From [Eubacterium] infirmum (GTDB lineage: Bacteria > Bacillota > Clostridia > Peptostreptococcales > Anaerovoracaceae), in contig UGGN01000001.1 of the NCBI GenBank assembly GCA_900450455.1, forward strand, positions 744,001 to 808,000: a stretch of DNA of 64,000 bases, in the 5' to 3' direction. Position 1 is the first letter of the stretch. Every line of letters begins with the position of its first letter. The position numbers were made by a program, and so were the translations under genes. The notes under the pieces were generated by a model that saw only the letters and a list, made by a program, of their open reading frames with translations, made no database searches and was not told where the DNA came from. Positions 16,442-33,937 of the stretch are shown piece by piece.

Positions 16442-16486
16442 GTTGAATCATCCAAGAATAAATGTTATAATTTTGATGAAATTTTA

Positions 16487-16584
16487 AAAACAATTTCAGG
16501 GGAATTGAGTGAAAATCTCAAACGGTCCCGCCACTGTGATGAGAATCCTGTATTCTCAGAGTCAGATTACCTGTGTTGTTTGTT
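16487..16584 (+). promoter_or_regulatory. Cobalamin (B12) riboswitch
   Basis: The leader carries the cobalamin-aptamer core: GGGGAATTGAGTGAAAATC, then ACGGTCCCGCCACTGTGA, a GAGAATCCTGTATTCTC stem, and the 3' B12 box in the form AGTCAGATTACCTG. An AAACAA/TTGTTT pairing closes the aptamer. The terminator at 16650-16673 is a ready expression platform, so cobalamin binding should stop transcription of the surface-protein gene at 16707. The ends are estimated from the closing helix. Confidence 0.9.
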
Positions 16585-16649
16585 TAAGTCTTATTCTACG
16601 AGCGATGGAAAAGGATTTGCGCGGATTTATATATGATGCCGACTATTTT

Positions 16650-16706: not shown

Positions 16707-19328
16707 GTGTTTACAGAAAGAAGAAGGAATTTAGCTAGATTTGCAGTAGTATTTCTAATGCTTATGCTCGTTTTGACTGCAAGCATGCCTAACCGCTTCG
16801 CTTATGCTACGGGCGAGCAGTATTCCGAGGCAGAGATATCCGAGGCTAATAAGGCACTTGATGATTTTCTGGCAGGAAGGAATAGCTATCTGATTACGAA
16901 TGGGGGTAGCTGGAACCCTGAAAAGGAATACGGAAGAATGAAGAGCGATGACGGCCTTACCTACACTATAGGCTATAAGATGTCGGTTGGTAATGAGGCG
17001 GATTTTGTGAGCCTTAACTTTAACTTCAACAGATTCGATAAGCATAGGGCTACAGTTTTCTTTGAGGGTAGTGCGCTTGACGCAAAGACTGCTCCTAACG
17101 GAAGCCAAAACACTATTAAAATAAAGAGAAGACCTAAGACGCAAGATATTGTTGTAAATGCAAGGCTTGCATTGTTCAGAAAGAACTCTATTAACACCCA
17201 CGTTCAGCAGGGAAAGGTGGATCCGATAGCGGAGAGGAATATCAAAATCATATTAAAGGCGCCAAAACACGAAAATGCACCTGTAAGGGTTTCTGTCAAA
17301 GTTTTTGATAAGGAGAGCAATCAGGAAATTTTGAAGGGCACGAGTAATCTGGCTGTAAACGTTTACGAGGATCAGGCGAGAAAGAAAATCGTATATAACT
17401 TGGATGCTAAGTACGACTACAACTTGGAGAAAAATAAGACCTACTACATAAGTGCAAAGGCAGATGGCTATGAGGACCTCTTTGAGGATTTCACTCCCAA
17501 GGAGCGTGGAGAACACAAGGTTCTTTTAACAAAGAAAAATGAGAACTCAAATGAAAGTGAGATATGGAACTTTGATAAGGATACGAAGACATTAAAGGGA
17601 TTCAAGGGTGGAGAAAAATATGATAATAATCAAGTTCTCGAAATTCCGGCGAGCATAGACGGAGTAAGTGTCGAAAAGATAGATAAGAATGCATTCAAAT
17701 ATGCACTTTGGGGATCAAATGTAAAAAATACAATTACTGAGCTTCATCTTCCGGCGAGTGTAAAGAGCATAGAAGCTGAGGCTTTCAAAGGTCATAAAAC
17801 GCTTACTAAGCTGAGCTTTGAAGATAAATCTAAGCTTGAGAAAATAGGTGATTCAGCTTTTATGTCCGCAAGCCTTGAGGGGCTTGTTTTACCAAGCAGC
17901 GTCAAGGAAGTCGGAGACGATGCGTTCAGCATGAATAATATAAAAGCGCTGACACTTCCTGAAGGTATTGAAAAGCTTGGCAGAGGTGCCTTCGGATGCA
18001 ATTTGATAGAGAAGGTTATACTTCCAAGCACACTTAAGGAACTTCCTAAGACTGCAAACGGAGTTTTCTACAAGAATTTCAGTGAGAAGCTTAAAGGAAA
18101 GGCATATAAGGGTCAGCTCAGATACGTTCAAGTATTTGACAAGAGTGGAATTGCAACTGCATTCAACACGGGTGGAGTTGTTAATCCGGTTCCCGTGACA
18201 ATCAAATATGTAAATCAGTTTGGTGAGAGAATACGTGAAGACGAAGTGGTCTACGGCTGTAATTATCAAACAACATATGAGAATTATGGCAAGGTTACGC
18301 TAGGCAAAGGAGACAATTCATTCCTTGATAACTACAGCGGGTCAAACGGAACTAATAGTGGAAATACCGCTACTGAGATTTTCAAGCAGGAGAAGATTGC
18401 GAATGCTATTATTGGTCAAAACTATTTTAGAGAAGGTCAGGAATATGTATTTAGCAAAGATAGTGCCCCTTATATCAAAGGTCACATAAGACCACAAGAG
18501 GACGTTAGAAAAACGATCACAAGTAAGGACAATGTGATTGAATATGTATACCAAACTAAAGAGAAAATCGTAGTAGATAAATCAGAGCTCAAAAAAACAA
18601 TTAAGGTAGCAGAGGCATCAAAGAAAAACATCAAAATCAGTGTTGACGGTAAGGATATCGTGCCATCGGAAAAGTGGACGACATCTGCGGCTGTAGAATC
18701 GTTAGACACTGCGATAAATACAGCGAAATCAGTCGATGGAGACACGAAAGTAAGACAGGAGGCTGTGGACAAGGCAAAGGCCGATTTAGAGGAGGCGATG
18801 AAAAACTTCGAGTTAAGCTTTAAGCAAGGTACAAAGGAAGAATCAAAGCCGGCCGAACCTGAAAAGCCGAAGCCGGGCGAGGTAGAACCATCAAAACCGG
18901 TCGAACCTGAAAAGCCAAATCCCGCTAAGCCTGAGGCATCAAAGCCGGACGAAGCGAAAAAAACTAATACGGATAAGGCTGTAGAGACTCCAAAGAAGAG
19001 TTCAAAGACCGGAACAAATAGCAGTTTAACTGCTCGAAACAATATGACCGGTAATACGGTGATGATGCCGAGACAGTCTAAATTGACGCCTGAAAAGAAG
19101 GCCGATACCGATATCGTTAAGAAAGCAGATGAAAGCAAATCAAAAACGGCATTGAAAGCGTCTGACAAGAATACTGAGAGCAAGGCTGTCCTCGAACATG
19201 ATGCCGAAAACAAGGATGAAAAGACATCGGATAATATTCCTATGTACATAAAGTTTATAGGTGCAATTGCTATTTTATCAATTGCGGTAGTTCTATATAA
19301 ATTTATCATGGCAGCAAAGCAAAAGTAA
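16707..19328 (+). CDS. B12-regulated BspA-type surface protein with C-terminal membrane anchor
   Basis: A secreted protein of 873 residues. A signal peptide (about 1-35) precedes an unrecognised domain (about 36-270). BspA-type leucine-rich repeats (LRR_5 pattern such as LHLPASVKSIEAEAFKG, about 285-470) follow, then a beta-rich segment, a FIVAR-like helical stretch (about 620-705), a Pro/Glu/Lys-rich wall-spanning region with repeated EPEKP units (about 708-760) and a membrane helix at 847-868 with a short basic tail. No LPXTG motif is present. The GTG start has AGGAGG five bases upstream. The cobalamin riboswitch in front makes it a candidate for corrinoid capture or B12-responsive adhesion; this is inference. 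It is monocistronic. Confidence 0.85.
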   Translation: MFTERRRNLARFAVVFLMLMLVLTASMPNRFAYATGEQYSEAEISEANKALDDFLAGRNSYLITNGGSWNPEKEYGRMKSDDGLTYTIGYKMSVGNEADFVSLNFNFNRFDKHRATVFFEGSALDAKTAPNGSQNTIKIKRRPKTQDIVVNARLALFRKNSINTHVQQGKVDPIAERNIKIILKAPKHENAPVRVSVKVFDKESNQEILKGTSNLAVNVYEDQARKKIVYNLDAKYDYNLEKNKTYYISAKADGYEDLFEDFTPKERGEHKVLLTKKNENSNESEIWNFDKDTKTLKGFKGGEKYDNNQVLEIPASIDGVSVEKIDKNAFKYALWGSNVKNTITELHLPASVKSIEAEAFKGHKTLTKLSFEDKSKLEKIGDSAFMSASLEGLVLPSSVKEVGDDAFSMNNIKALTLPEGIEKLGRGAFGCNLIEKVILPSTLKELPKTANGVFYKNFSEKLKGKAYKGQLRYVQVFDKSGIATAFNTGGVVNPVPVTIKYVNQFGERIREDEVVYGCNYQTTYENYGKVTLGKGDNSFLDNYSGSNGTNSGNTATEIFKQEKIANAIIGQNYFREGQEYVFSKDSAPYIKGHIRPQEDVRKTITSKDNVIEYVYQTKEKIVVDKSELKKTIKVAEASKKNIKISVDGKDIVPSEKWTTSAAVESLDTAINTAKSVDGDTKVRQEAVDKAKADLEEAMKNFELSFKQGTKEESKPAEPEKPKPGEVEPSKPVEPEKPNPAKPEASKPDEAKKTNTDKAVETPKKSSKTGTNSSLTARNNMTGNTVMMPRQSKLTPEKKADTDIVKKADESKSKTALKASDKNTESKAVLEHDAENKDEKTSDNIPMYIKFIGAIAILSIAVVLYKFIMAAKQK

Positions 19329-19416: not shown

Positions 19417-19599
19417 CGGCATTTTGTTTGTGTCTGTGGAGGAAGATCCATGCCAGCTATGGGCGAAAGGATCCACGTAAACCGTGAGAAGAACTTGCGG
19501 TGATCATGGCATAGCTTAGAAGTAAGTCCTCGGAGAAACTCCGGTCAAGGCAAGTGTGGGGGCAAAGACCAGGTCAGGCAAATAAGATGCTGTTTTTTT
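19417..19599 (+). ncRNA. raiA RNA: Structured RNA of probable raiA class
   Basis: About 180 bases without a reading frame, rich in G and A with several local stems. Bases 19417-19430 pair without a break with 19579-19592 (14 pairs, some G-U), closing the whole element, and a run of seven T follows at once, so the helix also serves as a terminator. A promoter starts exactly at the 5' arm. The gene downstream is hpf (also called raiA), the known location of the raiA RNA motif in Firmicutes. I considered SRP RNA, RNase P RNA, 6S RNA and tmRNA, and none fit. The class assignment rests on position, size and shape and needs a covariance-model search. Confidence 0.75.
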
Positions 19600-31138: not shown

Positions 31139-31411
31139 TTATTTCGCTGACTTTGCAGCGTTGAATCTCTTCGTTATACGGGAAACCTTTCTTGAAGCTG
31201 CGTGCTTATTGATGGAACCCTTTGATGCTGCTTGCATAAGCTTCTTTTCTGCTAAAGTAAGCTTCTCTGCTGCTACGTTCATGTCGCCTGATACAACTGC
31301 CTCATCGAACTGACGAAGAGCTTCCTTGACATGGTCCTTAACACGTCTGTTTCTTGCGGTCTTCTTGTCTATAACTTTGATTCTTTTTTTTGCGGATTTG
31401 ATATTTGCCAT
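31139..31411 (-). CDS. rpsT: 30S ribosomal protein S20
   Basis: A basic helical protein of 90 residues that binds 16S rRNA early in 30S assembly. The start MANIKSAKKRI and the Lys/Arg-rich body with RNRRVKDHVKEA and NKHAASRKVSRI are typical. It is full length and alone on its strand, with its own promoter at 31475-31503. The ribosome site is a modest TGGGG. Confidence 0.97.
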   Translation of the reverse strand: MANIKSAKKRIKVIDKKTARNRRVKDHVKEALRQFDEAVVSGDMNVAAEKLTLAEKKLMQAASKGSINKHAASRKVSRITKRFNAAKSAK

Positions 31412-31474
31412 AATTTTTACCCCACTATTCTTTAATCTTTAGCAATACTAATTTAATTCGCATATACGCAGAGT

Positions 31475-31503
31475 ATTATATATGATTAAATCGTTCAATG
31501 CAA
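31475..31503 (-). promoter_or_regulatory. Promoter of rpsT
   Basis: On the minus strand TTGCAT, a 17-base spacer and TATAAT. It gives a leader of about 60 bases ahead of rpsT. Confidence 0.65.
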
Positions 31504-31633
31504 GTGATTTTACATTATTTTCTCTACTTACCTTGAATTTCCTTTGATTTTGTTATGGGAATTTTTGTGCAGAGATATTGATTTTAGGGTATAATAAAAT
31601 GTATACATAAATTTGAATCAGGAGGAGTATAGG

Positions 31634-33937
31634 ATGCCAATCAGAGTTCCGAACAATCTACCGGCTGTCGAAACGCTAACAAACGAGAACGTATTTGTAA
31701 TGACAGATAGCCGTGCTATAACTCAGGACATCAGACCTTTGCAAATTTTGATTCTCAATCTGATGCCAACAAAGATAGATACAGAGACGCAGCTTACAAG
31801 ACTTTTGGGAAACTCACCCCTTCAGGTTGAACTTGAGTTACTCCAAACCGCGAGCCATAAATCGCAGAACACACCTGAGGAGCATATGCTCGCCTTCTAT
31901 AAGAGTTTTGAGCAGGTTAAGCAGAATTACTACGACGGTATGATAGTTACAGGTGCACCTGTTGAGCTTATGGAATTTGAGGAAGTCGAGTATTGGGATG
32001 AGCTTTGCGAGATTATGGAATGGTCAAAGTCGCATGTTCACAGCACCTTTTACATCTGCTGGGGTGCACAGGCCGGTCTCTACTACCACTACGGAATTAA
32101 GAAACATGTGCTTGCAGAGAAACTCTCGGGAGTTTACAAGCACCATTTGAGATATAAGACGGGAATGCTTTTTAGAGGCTTTGATGATATTTTCTACGTG
32201 CCTCATTCCAGAAACACAGATGTCGATGTAGAAGCTGTCGAGGCCTGTAAGGATATCAAAGTTGTAGCTGAATCGGATGAGGCAGGAATTTTTGCTATAA
32301 AGTCTAACGATGACAAGCAGATTTTCATAATGGGTCACTCAGAGTATGATGCTGACACGCTTAAGAAAGAATATGAGAGAGATGTAAAGCAGGGGAAAAA
32401 TCCTAATGTACCTTGCAACTACTACCCTGATGATGACCCAGGTAAGGAGCCTCAGGTGGTTTGGCGTTCCTGCGCAAATCTTTTGTTCTCAAACTGGCTA
32501 AACTACTTCGTGTATCAGTCGACTCCTTATGATATCAATAGCATTCAGCAGGAGGCGAGCAAGGCAATTAATTTAGAAAAATCAGATCTCACAGTATCAA
32601 AGTTTGGTGGAACCTCGCTTGCGGGCGCAGACAGGTTCAGAGCCGCAAAAGAAATAATCGAGGCGGATAAAAACCGCAAGTTTGTCGTGGTTTCTGCACC
32701 GGGTAAGCGCGATGCACGGGATAACAAGGTGACGGATCTTCTTGTTGAACTTGCAGATAGTGCCTGCGTTGGAGGAGGCATAAATCTGGATATAGATCAT
32801 GCGAGGAATCTTCTGTCAGAGATAAAAGAAAGATTTGTCGAGATAGAGGCGGAACTCCGTACGGGGGTGGACGTAGATGCAGAGTTCACCAAAATAGAGC
32901 ATGACATCTTCGAGAATGGACAAGGGAGGGCTTATATTACAAGTCGAGGCGAGTACATGAACGGAATACTGATGGCGGCATATCTCGGTGAGCCATGGCA
33001 GTTTGTCGATGCAAAGGATATAGTTTTCTTTGATAATGATGGCAAGCTTCTTCTCAAGGAAACGATCAAGGCAATATCAGATAGATGCGCCAAGCTTCCT
33101 AGGGCGGTTATCCCCGGTTTTTATGGAAGTCTTGCAGAGGATGGAAGCATCGAGACCTTCAGCAGAGGCGGTTCGGATATTTCGGCATCGCTTGTTGCAG
33201 CGGCTCTTCATGCAGATCTATATGAGAACTGGACCGATGTTTCGGGTATTTTGATGGCTGATCCCGGCATTGTTAGAAACCCTGTTACAGTTCCTGTTAT
33301 GACATATAAGGAGTTAAGGGAACTTTCGTATTTAGGTGCTACGGTCATGCACCCTGATGTAGTTGAACCTGTTGTCAAACTGGGAATTCCAATTATTATC
33401 AAGAACACGATGAACCCTGATGCTACAGGAACCCTGGTAGTAAAGGATAAAAAGTACTACAAAGAGAGCATGGAAATTGCGGGTATTTCAGGAAAGCGTG
33501 GCTTTGTAGTAATAAAGCTTGAGAAGACCGGACTTAACGACGATACCAAGCTTCGCCAAAGCATTTTGGACTTCTTTACCGAGAACTCTGTTAATATTAC
33601 AAATATAATTGCGGGCATAGATTCGCTGATTCTTCTCGTGCCTAAGGATAACTTTGAGAAGACGAATTTGAGCTTCTTCGAAATGGAGGCTAATATCCGC
33701 AAGATGGCAGGTGGAATTAAAATCGATATAACCAAGGATATAGCGGTTATCGGCGTTGTCGGTAGAGAGCTTGGCAGCTCACCGACAGTCGTCATCAAAA
33801 CTCTTTCAGCACTTGCAGGAAGACGTATAGATGTCAAGCTTATAGATCATGGCCAGGGGCAGATAAGCATTCTTATAGCTGTAGCGGCAACCGACTATGC
33901 AGAGGCTATCAGATCGATTTACGGTCGATTTGTATAA
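31634..33937 (+). CDS. metA-lysC: Fused homoserine O-acyltransferase (MetA) and aspartokinase
   Basis: One uninterrupted frame of 767 residues. Residues 1-300 are a complete MetA: start [11 protein letters not shown], nucleophile Cys142 (CWGAQAG), His235 and Glu237 in GHSEYD, and Glu111, the residue known to favour acetyl-CoA over succinyl-CoA. A linker of about 18 residues leads to a full aspartokinase: KFGGTS at 323-328, [24 protein letters not shown] and two C-terminal ACT domains (about 630-767). The first enzyme phosphorylates aspartate; MetA acylates homoserine for methionine. The ATG at 31634 has AGGAGG upstream; a TTG at 31613 would overlap that site. A TATAAT lies at 31590-31595. The fusion is unusual. 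Confidence 0.95.

Follow-up and report, generated by a model that had tools for sequence, protein, structure and literature searches.

A MetA–aspartokinase fusion protein found in 12 genera and an ACT-less counterpart in other families

We describe a gene in which homoserine O-acetyltransferase (MetA) and a complete aspartokinase (AK) with its ACT domains are encoded in one frame, located in a stretch of 64,000 nt (the window) and conserved across 12 genera of one family (type F1). The reading that we favor, and consider reasonably probable, is that the enzyme is bifunctional and dedicated to methionine, and that it originated through loss of a stop codon in a metY–metA–AK operon. A second architecture, type F2, consists of MetA and the AK catalytic domain, at which the chain ends. 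Its MetA half has a separate ancestry, and the comparison of the two types bears on the explanations that can be offered for the join.

The fused gene and its two halves

The frame is open from 31613 to 33937, without a stop up to the terminal codon (33935-33937), and because an AGGAGG precedes the ATG by 8 nt we take the 767-aa reading to be correct (Table 1). The original prediction of a full MetA and a full aspartokinase with two ACT domains in a single frame is borne out by Pfam, by NCBIfam, and by alignment to a solved aspartokinase (PDB 3tvi).

Table 1. Coordinates of the fused gene, its parts, and associated signals in the window
Feature	Position	Strand	Basis or remark
Shine-Dalgarno AGGAGG	31620..31625	+	8 nt 5' of ATG 31634; read in sequence
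Fused metA·AK gene, type F1, 767 aa	31634..33937	+	ORF, Pfam, NCBIfam
MetA half, homoserine O-acetyltransferase, residues 1-304	31634..32545	+	HTS 2-299, NF047918, active-site residues, PDB relatives
Linker, residues 305-318	32546..32587	+	linker comparison, 42 distinct F1 and 14 F2 proteins
AGGAGG, then ATT codon (residue 312) 11 nt on	32550..32569	+	inside junction; ATG in near relative G011
Aspartokinase catalytic domain, residues 319-591	32588..33406	+	Pfam AA_kinase, TIGR00657, catalytic-type columns kept
Regulatory ACT pair, approximately residues 604-766	33443..33931	+	ACT_9, 3tvi alignment, predicted secondary structure

The MetA half matches Pfam HTS over residues 2-299 (459.8 bits against a cut-off of 27; profile positions 1-298 of 298), and the residues named beforehand, Glu111, Cys142, His235, and Glu237, are all present in it. 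Use of acetyl-CoA had been predicted from Glu111, which we take to be a marker of the acetyl type, and NCBIfam agrees: the homoserine O-acetyltransferase model NF047918 is passed (484.3 bits; cut-off 460.5), and the succinyl-type model TIGR01001 stays at 464 bits below its cut-off of 495, so that the protein is not placed among the homoserine O-succinyltransferases. O-acetylhomoserine sulfhydrylase is also encoded in this genome, by a gene that passes TIGR01326 at 587.2 bits (cut-off 495.1). Set beside monofunctional MetA (NF047918; nearest solved relatives PDB 2h2w, 2ghr, and 2vdj), the half is equally whole, of the same length, and equipped with the same active-site residues, but it is followed by an entire C-terminal aspartokinase that those enzymes lack.

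Within the C-terminal half, Pfam AA_kinase covers residues 319-591 (109 bits) and the aspartate kinase model TIGR00657 is passed (250.7 bits; cut-off 208.7). This half ends in a pair of ACT domains, of which the first is the less firmly supported: Pfam ACT_9 matches the second one only (residues 707-766, 32.2 bits), and the first is placed by the alignment to 3tvi, which runs end to end through the kinase and all of the ACT part. A beta-alpha-beta-beta-alpha pattern also occurs twice in residues 615-766 of an AlphaFold model, mostly at pLDDT 63-86 there, although this model, made from five sequences, is poor overall (mean pLDDT 49). The Clostridium-type aspartokinase (3tvi, presumably from Clostridium; PRK09034/NF006540) thus aligns over both kinase and ACT pair but has no MetA, and the fused protein scores 403.8 against the NF006540 cut-off of 434.

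Lys323, Glu440, Arg511, and Asp515, to which we assign catalytic roles on the assumption that they correspond to those of E. coli aspartokinase III, are invariant in all 43 F1 and 14 F2 alignment rows, as are the four MetA residues; the 43 F1 rows represent 42 distinct proteins, the window's own being entered twice. Lys358 of the SAPGKR motif is substituted in 10 of the 43 F1 rows, by Arg in six of them. The linker is the least identical part of the protein between the window's genome (G000) and G011 (10 of 13 residues; 11 of 15 in another pair), and between the last matched MetA residue and the KFGG Lys there are 19-21 codons in F1 and 7-9 in F2. From the sequence of the junction, it is possible that its AGGAGG and ATT are a relic of the aspartokinase gene's own start.

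Distribution and selection

A search for this domain architecture by lineage establishes the fusion as a recurrent trait of a lineage and not a one-off. Of 197 genomes sampled from the window's family, 31, belonging to 12 genera, carry F1: 30 have a full-length row and one (G144) has an 818-aa fusion confirmed separately. In the window's genus it is present in all five sampled genomes, the window's own included. From the order-level sample come eleven more genomes whose F1 is unbroken (ten with full-length rows, plus the confirmed G402). Across the family, order, class, and phylum samples and one scan of public contigs, F1 was found only in this family and in four public contigs that lack finer names. 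Coverage beyond the phylum consists of that scan, in which 80 kept loci yielded four fusions, all F1.

Several individual loci deserve mention. Two F1 proteins of 824 and 818 aa (L178, L150) contain additional residues within the kinase domain, where their matches span 337 and 310 residues, compared with 283, and G128 holds an F1 fusion together with an unfused metY–metA pair (L186, L155). In G407, an assembly of three contigs from the order-level sample, the F1 frame is broken inside the kinase (L177, 4108-6389), through either a sequencing error or a real loss. An apparent 906-aa fusion in L184 was rejected by eye, as it is MetA plus an upstream stretch resembling antisense translation.

The original prediction had raised an assembly error at the junction as a concern, for which raw reads were to be consulted. 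The same junction is repeated, at 93% identity, in the single-contig genome G011 and in dozens of genomes altogether, and this recurrence excludes a junction error without recourse to raw reads. That one half might be dead could be argued from the broken copy in G407 and from the replacement of Lys358, but the catalytic-type columns are kept and each domain evolves under constraint, and we regard artefact or inactivity as extremely improbable.

The MetA, kinase, and ACT parts are all under purifying selection. Between G000 and G011, dN/dS is 0.024 for MetA, 0.049 for the AK catalytic domain, and 0.021 for the ACT region; five F1 pairs together span 0.010-0.029, 0.034-0.110, and 0.016-0.043, respectively, ratios that are rough because dS approaches or exceeds 1 in all but one of the pairs. 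The fused catalytic domain is 53.6% identical between G000 and G072, compared with 68% for the whole second aspartokinase of the same pair, and this lower conservation could reflect a relaxed function of the fused kinase.

Type F2 and the origins of the two architectures

F2 proteins of 589-608 aa, without ACT, occur in 14 genomes of four families other than the window's: two of the 11 genomes examined of family f10 (G205, G216), four of family f2 (G219, G252, G281, G318), seven of family f13 among the matches listed, and one of family f51 (G495). By sample, they were found in 6 of 345 genomes at the order level, 7 of 391 at the class level, and 2 of 398 at the phylum level. An ACT domain is absent by Pfam from all four of the 14 F2 proteins that were scanned. 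In 11 genomes the TIGR00657 match of the F2 kinase stops at position 284-293 of 442 and reaches 154-182 bits against the cut-off of 208.7, as expected because the ACT part is missing.

This second architecture bears on the idea, put forward in the original prediction, that ligands of the ACT pair act on the kinase and on the MetA joined to it alike, with one signal governing pathway entry and branch. Such allosteric coupling could be read from the strong purifying selection on the ACT region and from its match in every unbroken F1 protein compared. However, F2 has the join, on a MetA of separate ancestry, and has no ACT, so sharing of an ACT pair cannot explain such joins in general, and the poorly conserved linker gives no suggestion of a contact built between the halves. 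We therefore find it unlikely that coupling of this kind explains the fusion.

The F2 genes lie in compact surroundings. The gene metY is directly upstream in 10 of the 14, the order metY–F2–hom–asd is found in G216, G219, and G318, and metY–F2–asd is found in G495; in the first three, the whole route from aspartate to homocysteine is encoded together. The F2 gene overlaps hom by 14-20 nt at three loci (L169, L173, L174). For G219, G318, and G495, which are 96, 94, and 93% complete, no aspartokinase other than the F2 kinase was found, the remaining matches being below 27 bits.

Two loci in related settings were also observed. G260 has metY–metA–hom (L308, 1501-3425; hom by eye) with no aspartokinase between, even though its MetA shares 74% identity with the corresponding half of the F2 protein of G216; the kinase was either lost or not yet inserted. 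In G250, an ACT-less aspartokinase piece stands in one frame with homoserine dehydrogenase (L312, 505-2187), and the N-terminal part of that kinase follows metA at another place of the contig (L311, 1020-1343), which points either to a third type of fusion or to scrambling of the contig.

A more speculative proposal concerns the regulation of F2. It is conceivable, though we think it doubtful, that the MetA dimer and the feedback ligands of MetA (methionine, S-adenosylmethionine [SAM]) hold and control the attached kinase and so replace the lost ACT pair. If so, the catalytic domain of one pathway step would act as the allosteric domain of another, this would be the sole control on aspartate entry in G219, G318, and G495, and F1 would be the form that still has both regulators.

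The MetA halves of the two types do not share an origin. In a tree of 46 MetA rows, F1 forms one clade (100/99) and F2 belongs to another, which also contains five unfused MetA proteins; a common clade of F1 and F2 is rejected (AU p = 1.9e-9), and a FastTree of 197 MetA rows agrees with the separation. Among 104 kinase rows, F1 (99/98) and F2 (100/100) each form one group, but a tree of a 38-row kinase subset does not recover F1 as a single clade, and there the grouping of F1 with F2 is not rejected (p = 0.276). A single origin of F1 and F2 is consequently rejected by the MetA halves, though not by the kinase halves. The separate MetA ancestries imply two joins, or one join and a later replacement of the MetA half. 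On these sequence comparisons, relatives seem to have made the join a second time, without the ACT domain.

For reading these trees, the F1 and F2 groups were defined by architecture before the tests, and the 46-row MetA test followed the first MetA tree; the subsets (38 of 104 kinase rows, 46 of 197 MetA rows) were picked by hand. Proteins whose last 150 residues are identical to those of one kept were left out, as were the frame-broken L177 and L269, a duplicate of L169. Length excluded kinase matches shorter than 150 residues (L177, L179, L180, L272, L293) and MetA matches shorter than 270 residues (two pieces of L152); the divergent kinases of L179, L180, L272, and L293, being too short, are thus absent from the kinase trees.

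An unfused relative suggests how F1 may have come about. In G044, metY, metA, and AK follow in a row (metY also by eye), with metA and AK 6 nt apart, and a quick kinase tree groups the G044 kinase near F1 with modest support (83). Directly upstream of F1 genes, metY is found at three of 42 loci, all in genus g83 (L023, L024, L118), and L023 is the deepest of the 12 F1 rows in the 46-row MetA tree. The likely route is that the ancestor had a metY–metA–AK operon and that the stop codon between metA and AK was lost; G044 would represent the surviving unfused arrangement.

The same closeness of genes could be taken to mean that stop codons are easily lost in a tight metY–metA–AK–hom–asd operon and that the fusion is merely tolerated. 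The packing in G044, the overlaps between F2 and hom, and the in-frame kinase piece of G250 all fit such operon compaction, which we hold to be a possible, if secondary, explanation. Yet the MetA evidence points to two joins, the fusion persists in 12 genera, also where metY is undetected in the fetched flank (39 of 42 F1 loci), and purifying selection acts on all domains. These observations tell against a neutral join.

Pathway context, control, and meaning

Under the favored reading, the N-terminal half would convert homoserine and acetyl-CoA to O-acetylhomoserine and the C-terminal half would phosphorylate aspartate, and the fusion would most likely serve as a methionine-dedicated aspartokinase isozyme. 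The join would set pathway entry and commitment to the methionine branch at a one-to-one amount and expression, and a second, ordinary aspartokinase would supply the remainder of the aspartate family. A second aspartokinase is indeed present: the window's genome (1.9 Mb, 99.6% complete) has the fusion and one other, 41% alike. In 42 of 43 F1 genomes there are two or more aspartokinase matches, one of which is the fusion, and among 13 sampled family genomes without F1 there is one match in 10 and there are at least two in 3; the second match of G195 is weak.

The surroundings of the second aspartokinase complicate this division. In the window's genome it lies just after metK, and MetK is upstream in the fetched flank of 18 of 53 unfused aspartokinase rows; hom and asd flank the second aspartokinase in some genera. 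As the copy in the window's genome follows metK, it might also be linked to methionine or SAM, which would blur the division of labor.

The fusion stands apart from the other genes of its pathway. The original prediction noted that aspartate-semialdehyde and homoserine dehydrogenases are missing from the window, and reading of its ORFs by eye upholds this; the genome has matches to both at other places (C1:304492-305028 for homoserine dehydrogenase, C2:1442290-1442790 for aspartate-semialdehyde dehydrogenase), and hom, asd, and metY are all apart from the fusion and from one another. No other methionine genes were recognized beside the fusion among the ORFs of the window, also read by eye, which, like the scarcity of metY next to F1 genes, counts against the favored reading. 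The metY–F2–hom–asd clusters might favor a larger enzyme assembly, with Asd and Hom docked between the two halves. However, the steps joined are the first and the fourth and the two between are encoded by separate genes elsewhere, which makes channeling of intermediates, as originally suggested, very unlikely.

What the ACT pair senses can be approached through the genes present. No dapA match was found in the window's genome (control positive in 14 of 14), which makes lysine control of the fusion look unlikely. The gene is missing in 12 of 16 F1 genomes examined and present in 6 of 7 family genomes examined without F1, G044 being without it, a comparison of few unrelated rows that serves as a lead only. 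Asp340, Ser345, and Glu346, which we take to be lysine-binding positions in E. coli aspartokinase III, are not kept in the alignment to 3tvi and were given little weight. For the ACT pair, the ligand is probably an end product on the threonine/methionine side and not lysine.

At the level of RNA, no SAM riboswitch or T-box was found upstream of the fusion at the gathering threshold in the window and 20 F1 loci, a further point against dedication to methionine. A relaxed riboswitch search of 31380-31700 gave one match far under the cut-off (E 0.94), and a promoter/terminator scan gave no clear excess over shuffles. Elsewhere in the window, an AdoCbl riboswitch (16476-16620, 67.5 bits) precedes the gene of an 873-aa protein (16707-19328). 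By eye this protein appears to be exported, and it is an apparently atypical target for cobalamin control. A raiA RNA (19423-19586, 126 bits) lies just 5' of a 175-aa ORF that resembles, by eye, a ribosome hibernation factor.

Fusions of aspartokinase are standard examples when reasons for the joining of enzymes are discussed. ThrA and MetL (NF006959, NF007003) are likewise extra isozymes joined to a downstream pathway enzyme, and joins of this type are thought to give branch-specific control. Their partner, however, is homoserine dehydrogenase (step 3) at the C-terminus, whereas here it is MetA (step 4) at the N-terminus; the 767-aa protein has no Homoserine_dh domain by Pfam and stays far below the cut-offs of the fusion models (222.1 against 726; 111.6 against 582). 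The ask·lysA fusion (NF006515) also joins aspartokinase to a late branch enzyme through non-consecutive steps, but it belongs to the lysine branch, and in the MetA fusion, of the methionine branch, the partner is N-terminal; a LysA domain is absent from the 767-aa protein, which scores 120.3 bits against the NF006515 cut-off of 802. The MetA–aspartokinase protein is a further kind of aspartokinase join and a member of neither known type.

One earlier study describes the joins of aspartokinase with homoserine dehydrogenase and with diaminopimelate decarboxylase; for the former, its authors favor faster feedback over tunneling, and for the latter, faster feedback by the branch product is suggested (PMC1885841). 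The original prediction did not know a MetA–aspartokinase fusion as characterized, and among the matches listed from the open-licence literature we likewise found no description of one, which is not proof of absence. Among the best 25 of 27 NCBIfam matches for the 767-aa protein, no model spans both halves, and an automatic name is hence likely to cover one half only.

The two joins indicated by the MetA evidence, one with and one without ACT, constitute a natural experiment that separates shared allostery, dosage, and channeling as reasons for enzymes to join. F2, placed in a four-gene route from aspartate to homocysteine and carrying an ACT-less kinase, is in addition a candidate feedback-free part for methionine production.
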